Source: Amorphoplanes digitatis (lineage in GTDB: Bacteria > Actinomycetota > Actinomycetes > Mycobacteriales > Micromonosporaceae). Taken from it: a stretch of 64,000 bases of DNA. The DNA lies in NCBI RefSeq assembly GCF_014205335.1, contig NZ_JACHNH010000001.1:806001-870000 (forward strand), in the 5' to 3' direction. The notes under the pieces were generated by a model. That model was not told where the DNA came from. It saw nothing but the letters and a program-made list of their open reading frames with translations, and made no database searches. The position numbers and the translations under genes were made by a program. Shown here one piece after another: positions 24,501 through 62,580 of this stretch; the stretch's first letter is position 1; each line of letters begins with the position of its first letter.

Positions 24501-26012
24501 ATGCGCCGCATCGCCGTGCTCGACGCACCGTCCAACCTCGGCCTGCGCCCGCCGACGGCGACGGCGGTCCCGGGCTGTGCCAAGGCGCCCGGAGCCCTGC
24601 GCGACCACGGCCTGCTGCGCCGCCTGAACGCCCGGGACGCCGGCTGCCTGACCCCGCCGCGATACGACGCGGGGGACTGGCGGCCCGGCGACGGGGTCTG
24701 CCACGCGCAGGAGATCTCCACCTATTCGCGCCGGCTCGCCGACCGCATCGGCGCGATCCTCGACCAGGGCGAGTTCCCGGTGATCCTGGGCGGCGACTGC
24801 TCGATCGTGCTCGGCTCGGCGCTGGCGATGCACCGGCTCGGCGAGGCGGTCGGCGGCCGGATCGGCCTGGTCTTCGTGGACGGTCACTCGGACTTCCGGC
24901 ACCCGGGCAACGCGTCCTACGTGGGCGCCGCGGCCGGCGAGGACCTGGCCCTGGTGACCGGCCGCGGCCAGACGGACCTCGCGGCGATCGAGGGCCGGCG
25001 GCCCTACTACCGCGACATCGACGTGGTGGTGATGGGCATCCGCGCCCAGGACGAGTACCGGCTGGACCTACAGGCGGCGGGCATCGTGACCCGTCCGGTG
25101 CCGGCGCTGCGGGCGGAGGGCGCGGCGCGCAGCGCGCAGTGGGCCCGGGACCAGCTGGTGGACTGCGCGGGCTACTGGGTGCACGTGGACGTCGACGTGC
25201 TGGACCCGGCGGTGATGCCGGCGGTGGACGCGCCGGAGCCGGGCGGGATCGCGTTCCCGGAGCTGGAGCTGCTGCTGTCCGGCCTGGTCGAGTCGCCGCA
25301 CTGCCTGGGCGTGGAGATCACGGTCTTCGACCCGGACTACGACCCCGACGGCAAGTACGCGGAGGAGATCACGACGACGCTCGTGGCCGGGCTGAAGGCG
25401 GCGCACGCGGTCGACGCCCGGCCGGACCTGGTGGAGGCGCGCCGGGACCTGGCCGGCCCCGGCCGGCTCGCACCCGCCGCGGCCAACCGGCCCGGCAGGC
25501 TCGCGCCCGCCGCGGCCGCCGTGGTGGTTGAGGACGTCCCGGAGGCCGTCGAGGAGGCCGCGGAGCCCCTCGAGGAGGCCGCGGAGCCCGTCGCGGACGT
25601 GGAGCCCGTCGCGGACGTGGAGCCCGTCGCGGACGTGGAGCCCGACGCCCCGGACGCCGGGGACCCGCCCGCCGATCTCGACAGTGCGGACGATCCGCAC
25701 ATCGAGGCGGCCGCCGACGCCGACGTGGTCGATGTCGATCCGTTCGTCGCGCCCGCCGTGGACGACGGTGATCCGGTCGACGATCTCGGGCCGGTCGTGA
25801 CCGAAGACCTCGCCGTGGACCCGGACCCCGGGTATGACGACTCCGTGACGCACGCGGAGACCCGGCCGCTGGGGCTCGCGCCCCGGCTGGACTCCAAGCC
25901 GCTGCCGGCGACCATGCCCGGCATGCTGCGCCCGCGCGCGGCCGAGGACTTCACCCTCCCGGCCCAGCGCCCGGCCTTCGAGGTAGTCCCCGAGCAGCCC
26001 GCCGACCTCTAG
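24501..26012 (+). CDS. Arginase/agmatinase-fold protein with long acidic tail
   Basis: A 503-residue protein. Residues 1-310 have the arginase (ureohydrolase) fold with metal motifs DGHSD (D127, H129, D131) and HVDVDVLDP (D230, D232). The first metal ligand, usually His in GGDHS, is Cys100 (ILGGDCS). A Cys at this place is known in the hydroxyarginine hydrolase of the D-cycloserine pathway, so activity on a different guanidino or ureido substrate is possible. Residues 311-503 form a disordered Asp/Glu/Pro/Ala tail that includes a triple EPVADV repeat. It follows the thioredoxin-TPR gene and shares a CTAG stop overlap with the convergent PBP gene. Confidence 0.82.
   Translation: MRRIAVLDAPSNLGLRPPTATAVPGCAKAPGALRDHGLLRRLNARDAGCLTPPRYDAGDWRPGDGVCHAQEISTYSRRLADRIGAILDQGEFPVILGGDCSIVLGSALAMHRLGEAVGGRIGLVFVDGHSDFRHPGNASYVGAAAGEDLALVTGRGQTDLAAIEGRRPYYRDIDVVVMGIRAQDEYRLDLQAAGIVTRPVPALRAEGAARSAQWARDQLVDCAGYWVHVDVDVLDPAVMPAVDAPEPGGIAFPELELLLSGLVESPHCLGVEITVFDPDYDPDGKYAEEITTTLVAGLKAAHAVDARPDLVEARRDLAGPGRLAPAAANRPGRLAPAAAAVVVEDVPEAVEEAAEPLEEAAEPVADVEPVADVEPVADVEPDAPDAGDPPADLDSADDPHIEAAADADVVDVDPFVAPAVDDGDPVDDLGPVVTEDLAVDPDPGYDDSVTHAETRPLGLAPRLDSKPLPATMPGMLRPRAAEDFTLPAQRPAFEVVPEQPADL
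25590..25643 (+). repeat. Three 18-bp tandem repeats inside the arginase-fold gene
   Basis: GTCGCGGACGTGGAGCCC occurs three times in perfect tandem and encodes VADVEP three times in the acidic tail. The repeat keeps the frame, so copy number could vary between strains without breaking the gene. Confidence 0.9.
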
Positions 26013-53798: not shown

Positions 53799-54914
53799 GT
53801 GCGAGTGCTAGCAGCCATGTCCGGTGGGGTCGACTCCGCCGTCGCCGCCGCGCGCGCCCGTGACGCGGGCCACGACGTCACCGGCGTGCACCTGGCGCTG
53901 GCGCGGAATCCGCAGACGTATCGGACCGGTGCCCGGGGCTGCTGCACGCTCGAGGACTCCCGGGACGCCCGGCGGGCCGCCGACGTCATCGGCATCCCGT
54001 TCTACGTGTGGGACATGGCCGACCAGTTCCACGAGAACGTCGTCGACGACTTCGTCGCCGAGTACGCGGCGGGCCGCACCCCGAACCCCTGCCTGCGCTG
54101 CAACGAGAAGATCAAGTTCGCGGCCGTGCTGGACCGTGCCGTCGCGCTGGGCTTCGACGCGGTCGTCACCGGCCACCACGCCCGGCTCGGCGCCGACGGC
54201 CTGCTGCGGCGCAGCGTCGACATGGCCAAGGACCAGTCGTACGTGCTGGCCGTCCTGACCCGCGAGCAGCTCGACCGGGCGGTCTTCCCGCTCGGCGACT
54301 CGACGAAGGCGCGGGTCCGCGAGGAGGCCGCCGAGCGCGGCCTCGCCGTCGCCGACAAGCCCGACTCGCACGACATCTGCTTCATCGCCGACGGCGACAC
54401 CCGTGGCTTCCTGGCCGCGCGGCTGGGCGAGGCGCCGGGCGACATCGTCGACTCCCGCACGGGCGCCGTCCTCGGCCGGCACGCCGGCGCGTACTCCTAC
54501 ACCGTCGGCCAGCGCAAGGGCCTGGACCTGCGGGTCCCCGCGCCCGATGGCCGCCCGCGCTACGTACTGTCGATCACCCCGAAGACCAACACGGTCACGG
54601 TCGGCCCCCGCGAGGACCTCGCGGTCGACCTGGTGACCGCCACCCGGCCGATCTGGCACGGCGAGCCGACGCCCGTCGAGTGCGACGTGCAGCTGCGCGC
54701 GCACGGCGAGGTGGTCCCGGCCGTCGTGACCGTCGGCCCGGACGGCCTGCGGGCCCGGCTGCGCGAACCGGCCCGGGGCGTCGCGGCCGGCCAGGCCATC
54801 GTCGCCTACCGCCGGGACCCGGCCGGCGACATCGTGCTCGGCTCGGCGACCATCGCCGCCGGCGTCGCGGAGCAGGTTTCCGCGGGCCTGACCGGGCCGG
54901 AGCAAGGTGCCTGA
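53799..54914 (+). CDS. mnmA: tRNA-specific 2-thiouridylase MnmA
   Basis: A 371-residue enzyme that thiolates U34 of Lys, Glu and Gln tRNAs. The PP-loop SGGVDS (residues 8-13) binds ATP, and the catalytic pair is C98 (NPCLRCN) and C194 (DICFIAD). The length agrees with MnmA. GTG 53799 (GTGCGAGTGCTA) is the start. The gene follows cysteine desulfurase, and the MetE-like gene starts within its last 8 bp. Confidence 0.95.
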
Positions 54915-55905
54915 CTTCCCCTGGCCGTCCGGCGCGGCAACCGGGCTCGGCTCGCTGCCCGGCACCGACATCGCCGAGGCGCAGCGGCTGATCCTCGGCG
55001 AGCTGCCCGAACTGCCGCACCTCCCCGAGCTGCCGGAGCGCGGGCCGGGCGCCGACATGATCGGGCGCGGCGCGGGCCTGCTGGTCGAGCTGCCGGTGCA
55101 GCTCTACGTCGGGCGCTGGCAGATGGCGCCGCGACCCGGCCGGGACCAGCGCCGCATCGCCGACCTGCTCGAACGCGATCTCGACCAGCTCACCGAGCAG
55201 GCCGACCGCTACGCCGGGCCGATCAAACTCCAGGCGCCCGGGCCGTGGACCCTGGCCGCCGGCCTCGAACTTGCTATCGGCGGGCGCATGCTGCGCGACC
55301 CCGGCGCGGTGCGCGACCTCACCGACTCGCTCGCCGAGGGGCTGCGCCGGCACGTCGCCGAGGTGCGGCGGCGGCTTCCGCGTGCGTCCGTGCTGCTCCA
55401 GCTCGACGAGCCGTCGCTGCCGGCGGTCCTCGGCGGACAGATACCTACCGAGAGCGGGCTGAGTGCGTACCGGGCCGTCGACGGCGCCGGTGCCGCGGGG
55501 GCGCTGCGGACCGTGGTCCAGGCCGTCGGGGTGCCGGTGATCGTGCACTGCTGTGCTCCGGCCGTACCGTTGCAGGTTTTGCGGGACGCCGGGGCCGCCG
55601 CCGTCGCGCTCGACCTTGGGATGATCAAAGATCTCGATCCGCTCGGCGAGGCCATCGAGGCGGGGCTCGGCCTGTTCGCGGGGGCCGTGCCCACGCGCCC
55701 GGCGCCCGGCTCGCCCCCGCCGACGTCGGCGGCGATCGCGGAGCGGGTGCGCGTGCTGTGGAGCCGGCTCGGCTTCCCCGCGGCCCGGCTGCCCGCGCAG
55801 GTCGTGATCACCCCGGCCTGCGGGCTCGCCGGCGCCGCGCCGTCCTATGTGCGAGCGGTGCTGAAGGGCTGCCGGGACGCCGGTCGCCGTCTGGCCGAAG
55901 TCTGA
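54907..55905 (+). CDS. MetE-like zinc methyltransferase-domain protein
   Basis: A 332-residue protein with the C-terminal barrel of cobalamin-independent methionine synthase. Zinc-type residues are seen in VIVHCCAP and near the end in [18 protein letters not shown] is also typical. It lacks the N-terminal half of full MetE (about 750 residues). Members are usually next to mnmA and ligA in actinobacteria, and their reaction is not settled; they might transfer methyl groups from corrinoids or thiols. GTG 54907 overlaps mnmA by 8 bp, so they form one operon. Confidence 0.85.
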
Positions 55906-55949
55906 CGGTTTCGGCAGATTCGCCGGGCTGGGGCGGGCATCATGCACTC

Positions 55950-56303
55950 ATGATTGGACGCCTGGACGCCGTCGTCATCGACTGCCCCGATCCCCGTGCC
56001 CTCGCCGACTTCTACTGCGCGCTCCTGGGCATGCACGTCGTCCGCGACGAGGACGGCCGGGTGACCACCCGGACCGACTCGGACGCGCCGAGCCTGGTGT
56101 TCCAGAAGGCGCCCGACCTGCTCCCGCCGGACTGGCCGGACCGGAACCGACCGCAGCAGTTCCACCTGAATGCGCGGGTGGGCGACATCGAGGCGGCGGA
56201 GCGGCGGGTGCTGGCGGCGGGCGGCAAGCGCCTGGACGGGGGGAGCGGCCGCTGCCGGGTGTACGCCGACCCGGTCGGCAACCCGTTCTGGCTGGTCTGG
56301 TGA
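55950..56303 (+). CDS. VOC/glyoxalase-superfamily protein
   Basis: A 117-residue single-domain glyoxalase-like protein starting at ATG 55950. Marks: VVIDCPDPRALADFYCALLG, RPQQFHLNARVGDIEAAE and the end VYADPVGNPFWLVW. This form matches small VOC proteins of unknown substrate or resistance function. The metal-binding His usual at the start is replaced (VVIDCP), so it may not be an enzyme. It is followed by the tandem array at 56341. Confidence 0.75.
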   Translation: MIGRLDAVVIDCPDPRALADFYCALLGMHVVRDEDGRVTTRTDSDAPSLVFQKAPDLLPPDWPDRNRPQQFHLNARVGDIEAAERRVLAAGGKRLDGGSGRCRVYADPVGNPFWLVW

Positions 56304-56340
56304 GCGCGCGCTAGTCACCCGCCTTTACTGCCCCGCCTTT

Positions 56341-57020
56341 ACTACCCGCCCTTGCTGGCCTGCCTTGCTGCCGGCCTTTGCTGGCCCGCCCTTGCTGGCC
56401 TGCCTTGCTGCCGGCCTTTGCTGGCCCGCCCTTGCTGGCCTGCCTTGCTGCCGGCCTTTGCTGGCCCGCCCTTGCTGGCCTGCCTTGCTGCCGGCCTTTG
56501 CTGGCCCGCCCTTGCTGGCCTGCCTTGCTGCCGGCCTTTGCTGGCCCGCCCTTGCTGGCCTGCCTTGCTGCCGGCCTTTGCTGGCCCGCCCTTGCTGGCC
56601 TGCCTTGCTGCCGGCCTTTGCTGGCCCGCCCTTGCTGGCCTGCCTTGCTGCCGGCCTTTGCTGGCCCGCCCTTGCTGGCCTGCCTTGCTGCCGGCCTTTG
56701 CTGGCCCGCCCTTGCTGGCCTGCCTTGCTGCCGGCCTTTGCTGGCCCGCCCTTGCTGGCCTGCCTTGCTGCCGGCCTTTGCTGGCCCGCCCTTGCTGGCC
56801 TGCCTTGCTGCCGGCCTTTGCTGGCCCGCCCTTGCTGGCCTGCCTTGCTGCCGGCCTTTGCTGGCCCGCCCTTGCTGGCCTGCCTTGCTGCCGGCCTTTG
56901 CTGGCCCGCCCTTGCTGGCCTGCCTTGCTGCCGGCCTTTGCTGGCCCGCCCTTGCTGGCCTGCCTTGCTGCCGGCCTTTGCTGGCCCGCCCTTGCTGGCC
57001 TGCCTTGCCGCCCGCCTTTG
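56341..57020. repeat. 17-unit 40-bp tandem repeat array
   Basis: Seventeen head-to-tail 40-bp units; the fifteen from 56381 to 56980 are identical. Each unit is built of three related blocks of 14, 13 and 13 bp (GCCCGCCCTTGCTG, GCCTGCCTTGCTG, CCGGCCTTTGCTG). The first and last units and the left flank (56317-56340) are degenerate versions. The plus strand of the unit has no adenine (17 C, 12 G, 11 T), so no stop codon can occur in any of the six frames. The array fills the gap between the convergent VOC and 2H-phosphoesterase genes and begins 13 bp past the latter's stop. No spacers exist, so it is not a CRISPR. Confidence 0.97.
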
Positions 57021-57033
57021 CTGGCCTGCCTTG

Positions 57034-57558
57034 CTATCCGCCGAGCGGGAACTCGCGGATCGTTCGCCAGCCGCCGGGCTGTTGCGTCCCGGCGATGAGG
57101 CGGACCGTGTCGATGGCCGCGCGGATCGGTAGGCACCGGGTGACCGCGTCGGCCGCCTCGGTCATGGCCTTCGCCGGCGAGTCGTGGCCGACGGTCAGGT
57201 GCGGCACGACGTCGTCGAATGCGCCCTCGTAGGGCGGTGCCTGGGGAAAGCGCCGCCAGATCGCGGTGGTGAGCGCGCGGAGCGGCGCGTCCGGGGTCGG
57301 CGCCAGCCAGACCACCGTGTCGCCGAACCACCGGACCCGCGTGAAGTCGACTGTGAACCTCGGCACGGACGCGAGTGCCTCGCCGACCGCGGCCAGCGTC
57401 TCGTCGTCGAGGTCACCGGGCGCGAGGAACGGGTACAGCACCGTGACGTGTGCCGGGATACCCCAGCTCGTGGCCCTGTCCAGCGCCGCCCGCCAGCGGC
57501 TCACGGCCGGCTCGACCTCCGGCACGGGCACGATGAGCGCGGTCTGCGTGGGCTGCAT
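57034..57558 (-). CDS. 2H phosphoesterase (2'-5' RNA ligase-like, LigT/ThpR type)
   Basis: A 174-residue protein starting at ATG 57558. The two catalytic His-x-Thr-type motifs are present: HVTVLYPF (H37) and HLTVGH (H120), about 80 residues apart as in the 2H superfamily. Members hydrolyse cyclic phosphodiesters of RNA or nucleotides. The TAG stop is followed almost at once by the tandem array, and readthrough would add a repetitive basic tail (QGRPAKAG type) because the array has no stop in any frame. Divergent from ligA. Confidence 0.85.
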   Translation of the reverse strand: MQPTQTALIVPVPEVEPAVSRWRAALDRATSWGIPAHVTVLYPFLAPGDLDDETLAAVGEALASVPRFTVDFTRVRWFGDTVVWLAPTPDAPLRALTTAIWRRFPQAPPYEGAFDDVVPHLTVGHDSPAKAMTEAADAVTRCLPIRAAIDTVRLIAGTQQPGGWRTIREFPLGG

Positions 57559-57642
57559 TGCTGAAGTCTCCGGCCCGGCCCGGCCGTGGTCCACCCGATA
57601 TCGGACGCCTGCCTTCGGCGGATTGTCGGACCGGGCCGCTAA

Positions 57643-59886
<2,244 letters not shown>

Positions 59887-62392: not shown

Positions 62393-62483
62393 ACGCTCCC
62401 GCCGCCTGCCCACACCCGGGCGGCGGGTCCCGGAGCCGACCGTCCCCGCTCGGGCCGTCCTCGCTCACGTTGCCCGTTCTGCC

Positions 62484-62580
62484 GTCCCCGCTCGCGCGGC
62501 CGTTCCCGCCGTCCCGCTCGCGCGGCCGTTCCCGCAGTCCCGCTTCCGCGGCTGTCCCGCTTCCGCGGCTGTCCCGCTGT
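62484..62580. repeat. Short tandem repeats between GGDEF-EAL gene and gatC
   Basis: Two 23-bp copies of a CCCGCTCGCGCGGCCGTTCCCGC-type sequence start at 62487 and 62513 (period 26), followed by two copies of GTCCCGCTTCCGCGGCT at 62537 and 62554 (period 17). The 345-bp gap holds no credible gene. The plus strand here is poor in adenine, like the 40-bp array. Confidence 0.8.

Follow-up and report, generated by a model that had tools for sequence, protein, structure and literature searches.

A probable, recently expanded non-coding 40-bp minisatellite in a convergent gene gap of Amorphoplanes digitatis

In mycobacteria, which are high-GC actinobacteria, MIRU-VNTR loci are intergenic tandem repeats with units of 40-100 bp, and the MIRU units form one family dispersed over the genome. 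REP/BIME elements prefer convergent gaps and the 3' ends of genes; the REP units, too, belong to one dispersed family, of palindromes. For the intrastrand triplex repeats known as TMECO, no strand bias is reported (PMC4666352). In the open-access literature we found no description of tandem arrays that favour convergent gaps or that have a leading-strand polarity. The array described here consists of head-to-tail units within the ~10-100-bp range of minisatellites, with high identity and a lineage-specific expansion at one locus.

The window, the whole stretch of DNA that was analysed, is 64 kb long and covers positions 806001-870000 of a single 9,128,557-bp contig, whose protein relatives suggest an Actinoplanes-like member of the Micromonosporaceae. 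The array occupies the 3'-3' gap between a VOC/glyoxalase-like gene on the plus strand (55950-56303; PF18029, E 1.7e-23), whose 3' end points toward it, and a convergent gene for a 2H phosphoesterase of the 2'-5' RNA ligase superfamily on the minus strand (57034-57558). It lies 41 bp from the stop codon of the former and 0 bp from that of the latter. That the array abuts a 2H phosphoesterase gene had been proposed by a first-pass annotation made from the sequence alone, and the domain match (PF13563, E 1.4e-26) and the TAG at 57034-57036 on the minus strand bear this out. The neighbourhood also includes a cobalamin-independent methionine synthase-like gene (54907-55905, plus strand; PF01717), which served as a synteny anchor, and ligA, encoding NAD-dependent DNA ligase (57679-59886, plus strand), which anchored the comparison of the orthologous locus. 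Elsewhere the genome carries another NAD-dependent DNA ligase-like gene (G000:C1:4797599-4799599), with 43% identity to the LigA of the window, and such an extra copy is present in most congeners.

Tandem Repeats Finder places the period-40 array at 56345-57035 (17.3 copies, 99% match) and ranks it as the highest-scoring tandem array in the window. By direct count, 16 identical units occupy 56345-56984 and the exact period-40 stretch extends over 664 bp (56345-57008); positions 56985-57024 hold one unit with two mismatches, and the incomplete unit after it extends into the stop codon of the 2H gene. The tandem array of the first-pass annotation thus stands and is slightly larger, with 16 rather than 15 identical units, a start at 56345 rather than 56341 and an end at 57035. 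The plus strand of the unit (CCCGCCCTTGCTGGCCTGCCTTGCTGCCGGCCTTTGCTGG) has 17 C, 12 G, 11 T and no A, and A is missing throughout 56345-57035. Stop codons are therefore impossible on both strands, as had been noted earlier, and this is a trivial consequence of the composition. Each unit falls into three blocks, about 13-14 bp long, again as first described, with a mutual likeness of 79-86%. Directly upstream, at 56319-56344, are two older units of about 14 bp (CCGCCTTTACTG..), 87% alike and with 60-73% likeness to the blocks of the 40-bp unit; they are the likely seed of the array. The 13-bp core has 37 matches in the window where 2.1 are expected, which excludes chance. No spacers separate the units and the period is exactly 40, so this is not a CRISPR array. 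Elsewhere in the window, an A-poor array (62454-62578; 26 bp x 4.1, then 17 bp x 2.5) lies behind a GGDEF/EAL-like gene, with T exceeding A in the same strand sense as in the 40-bp array. Arrays of 33 and 18 bp at 25453-25648, with unit lengths that are multiples of three, are possibly a Pro/Ala-rich coding repeat.

The 40-bp unit occurs at a single locus in the 9.13-Mb genome, unlike a dispersed family of the MIRU or REP/BIME type. The search of other genomes that had been suggested at the outset gave no such array in any of 67 congeners (the weak matches are other arrays). The unit is also without a match in plasmid records or viral contigs, and we reject a plasmid or phage origin on that basis. 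We compared the orthologous locus in 29 congeners, anchored on ligA, which has 89% identity in the nearest of them. The gene order mnmA, methionine synthase-like gene, often the glyoxalase-like gene, and ligA is kept; neither the 40-bp array nor, at the ligA junction, a 2H gene was found at this locus in any congener examined. In the nearest congener (L218), DNA similarity breaks off where the glyoxalase-like gene ends and restarts at 57623, just before ligA. Thus, at this junction the array is lineage-specific, as is the 2H gene. The minus-strand gene between the glyoxalase-like gene and ligA has been exchanged, with a 2H phosphoesterase here and, in the nearest congener, a PemK-like gene in its position (L218:3834-4226, minus strand; PF02452, E 5.3e-9) whose product is membrane-anchored. 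The 2H orthologues that other members of the genus carry at other loci, with identities of up to 60%, are not followed by such an array. Most congeners have no array at this junction, and four carry short unrelated ones directly 3' of the upstream stop codon (16 bp x 3.8 in L219, 26 bp x 6.8 in L222, 19 bp x 5 in L224 and 66 bp x 2.2 in L228).

Arrays of at least 50 bp were surveyed with Tandem Repeats Finder over 2.4 Mb of the same genome, with genes called by a simple home-made codon model whose individual assignments may be wrong. They are present in 19 of 163 convergent gaps (11.7%), 21 of 772 tandem gaps (2.7%) and 2 of 353 divergent gaps (0.6%). Convergent gaps differ from tandem gaps (Fisher p 6.7e-6) and from divergent gaps (p 1.6e-8), and the convergent rate agrees between the two surveyed stretches (11.6% and 11.8%). 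The 40-bp array is the top-scoring intergenic array in the first 1.6 Mb. Loci from other species gave arrays in 5/20 convergent, 6/76 tandem and 1/63 divergent gaps, a count that is not independent because all five convergent cases come from the ligA neighbourhood. A motif common to the arrays was sought and rejected, the best 6-mers being present in at most 16 of 45. Statistically, the 40-bp array is thus one of many sequence-unrelated arrays of the genus that favour convergent gaps. Among the other arrays of this genome, a 214-bp x 3.3 array in a convergent gap (L148, G000:C1:1026033-1026728; 3% A) has the second-highest score among intergenic arrays in such gaps, and a pure CGGTG pentamer repeated 26.6 times (L153, G000:C1:1120350-1120482) is a simple repeat whose length could vary.

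The arrays are also oriented with respect to replication. With dnaA at 8,831,420, the clockwise distance from the origin to the 40-bp array is about 1.16 Mb, and the plus strand of the array, free of A, has the leading-strand sense. Over the 2.4 Mb, T exceeds A on the leading-sense strand in 36 of 45 intergenic arrays (p 6.6e-5); coding arrays have no significant bias (55/97). Non-array gap segments show T in excess of A on this strand in 59% of cases, so that a background skew of the leading strand accounts for part of the polarity, and the arrays exceed it (Fisher p 0.0046). The contrast is clearest among strongly skewed sequences, where the ratio with T above A on the leading-sense strand is 19:2 for arrays versus 13:18 for non-array gaps. 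On the leading strand, 30 of 44 intergenic arrays have more G than C; the 40-bp array, by contrast, is C-rich. A strand asymmetry linked to transcription was considered and rejected, with no signal in tandem gaps (the sense strand is T-rich in 14 of 24 arrays). A perfect 14-bp x 25 array on the other replichore, between two minus-strand genes (L199, G000:C1:7972265-7972617), is T-free on the plus strand, so that its polarity mirrors that of the 40-bp array.

We extended this to 15 complete genomes of the genus in which dnaA was located (G063 was left out), counting once each tract that matched an A followed by at least 120 non-A positions. Among the matches listed, at least 365 A-free tracts are in the leading sense and at least 115 are not (p 2.4e-31; the counts for G060 and G061 are lower bounds), with the terminus assumed opposite dnaA and coding tracts included. 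The excess is present in 14 of the 15 genomes, again among the matches listed, and the remaining genome has 3:3. The requirement for long A-free runs magnifies a small background skew. The tracts have a median of 3.2 per Mb in the genus versus 0.76 in large genomes of the class, and vary from 6 to 70 per genome. Statistically, then, the A-poor strand of the genus arrays is mostly the leading-sense strand, which is the lagging-strand template.

We predict, with a probability of roughly 0.7, that this is a non-coding minisatellite that recently expanded in a tolerant 3'-3' gap, from a seed of about 14 bp. A minisatellite with recent expansion had been among the first suggestions for this DNA, and the identical units, the single locus and the absence from the 67 congeners and from the orthologous junction all support it. 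The nested blocks and the older 14-bp units suggest an order of events: the 14-bp seed, the 40-bp compound unit, then multiplication. A sequence of about 13-14 bp in the convergent 3' gap may first have duplicated to form a compound unit of 14+13+13 bp, which would then have been multiplied to about 17 copies, probably by replication slippage or unequal recombination. The compound unit has multiplied with little time for mutation. Growth would be possible in a 3'-3' gap because no promoter or ribosome-binding site is present there, and the orientation survey suggests that such gaps, being without start signals, tolerate it. The polarity of the A-poor strand in turn suggests that the birth or growth of arrays is tied to replication-strand asymmetry, and birth may be linked to the lagging-strand template, the strand exposed in single-stranded form at the fork. 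More tentatively, arrays of the genus may arise repeatedly and independently in convergent gaps, through a replication-polar process that favours an A-free lagging-strand template. It is a similarly speculative possibility that such a process has given rise to the many polar minisatellites of unrelated sequence, including several that different species carry at one junction upstream of ligA.

The main rival is that the array is a bidirectional barrier that stops RNA polymerase and so spares the convergent genes mutual antisense RNA. We consider this unlikely, whether the polymerase were halted at hairpins that lack a U-tract or through Rho loaded onto a transcript rich in C and free of A. The convergent position is as expected for a barrier, arrays are more enriched the more gene 3' ends a gap contains, and the gap is without another terminator. 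A double-sided terminator had been proposed in the first-pass annotation; in its intrinsic form this is not supported, as no GC-rich hairpin with a T run behind it was identified in 55900-57700, and no Rfam families were found. A Rho-dependent terminator would call for C-rich RNA of little structure; the plus-strand unit is C-rich and its RNA is well folded. Compared with dinucleotide shuffles, the transcripts of the two strands are the more stably folded (z -5.6 and -4.3). Much of this follows from the periodicity of the array, since compared with tandem arrays of shuffled units the RNA is only moderately more structured (z -1.6 and -2.0). A structure common to intergenic arrays was considered and rejected, as the effect across the 45 arrays as a group is not significant. 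The absence of a shared motif or structure thus argues against a barrier, as do the same junction in congeners (unrelated in sequence in some and empty in most) and an asymmetry that tracks replication and not transcription. A barrier to convergent transcription would explain the position of the array, but neither its polarity nor the absent common motif.

Identical 40-bp units are prone to mis-assembly, and the copy number, or even the whole array, could in principle be an assembly artefact. This is improbable: the genome is one contig, and the degenerate edge unit and the older flanking units are not expected from an artefact. Still less probable is that A-free arrays act as replication-polarity elements that, like AIMS/KOPS, signal the origin-to-terminus direction to chromosome-handling proteins. 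The strong leading-sense polarity in 15 genomes fits such a role, but the array units are unrelated, no k-mer is common to them and the number per genome varies from 6 to 70; AIMS/KOPS have a shared strand-biased motif, and here polarity is present and a common motif is absent.

The weakest alternative is a hidden Lys/Ala/Gly-rich tail, translated past the stop of the 2H gene, or else a separate repeat protein. Every open frame of the array might speak for it, but that openness is due to the missing A alone. Per-codon coding scores lie between -0.40 and -0.53 in each of the six frames, whereas even the first percentile of called genes reaches +0.12. The units have no ATG, GTG or TTG on the minus strand and the 2H protein terminates at the same residue as its orthologues, so that the tail suggested by the first-pass annotation has next to no likelihood. 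The array has neither the codon usage nor the start signal of a repeat-protein gene, and these results rule out both a coding tail and an independent protein. They also caution against taking long open frames for genes where the DNA is free of A.

Recurrent, fork-oriented arrays make the birth of minisatellites (on which strand and where) testable within one genus that has many complete genomes, and the arrays are candidate markers for strain typing. Compared with known systems, the array resembles bacterial minisatellites and VNTR loci in its head-to-tail 40-bp units, near identity and single intergenic locus; it differs in being A-free on one strand, in its 3'-3' gap and in belonging to a polar genus-wide set, known here from one genome per species. 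It shares intergenic tandem units and a high-GC actinobacterial host with the mycobacterial MIRU-VNTR loci, but its unit is at one locus. REP/BIME elements likewise favour convergent gaps and the 3' ends of genes, but their units, unlike those here, are related between loci. The leading-strand polarity is like that of the AIMS/KOPS octamers, which differ in having a common motif. Intergenic repeats linked with local sequence instability are shared with TMECO (PMC4666352), from which the array differs in unit, structure and strand bias. The array of the window is thus ordinary in kind, a minisatellite, and the polarity of the genus-wide set is the unexpected part.
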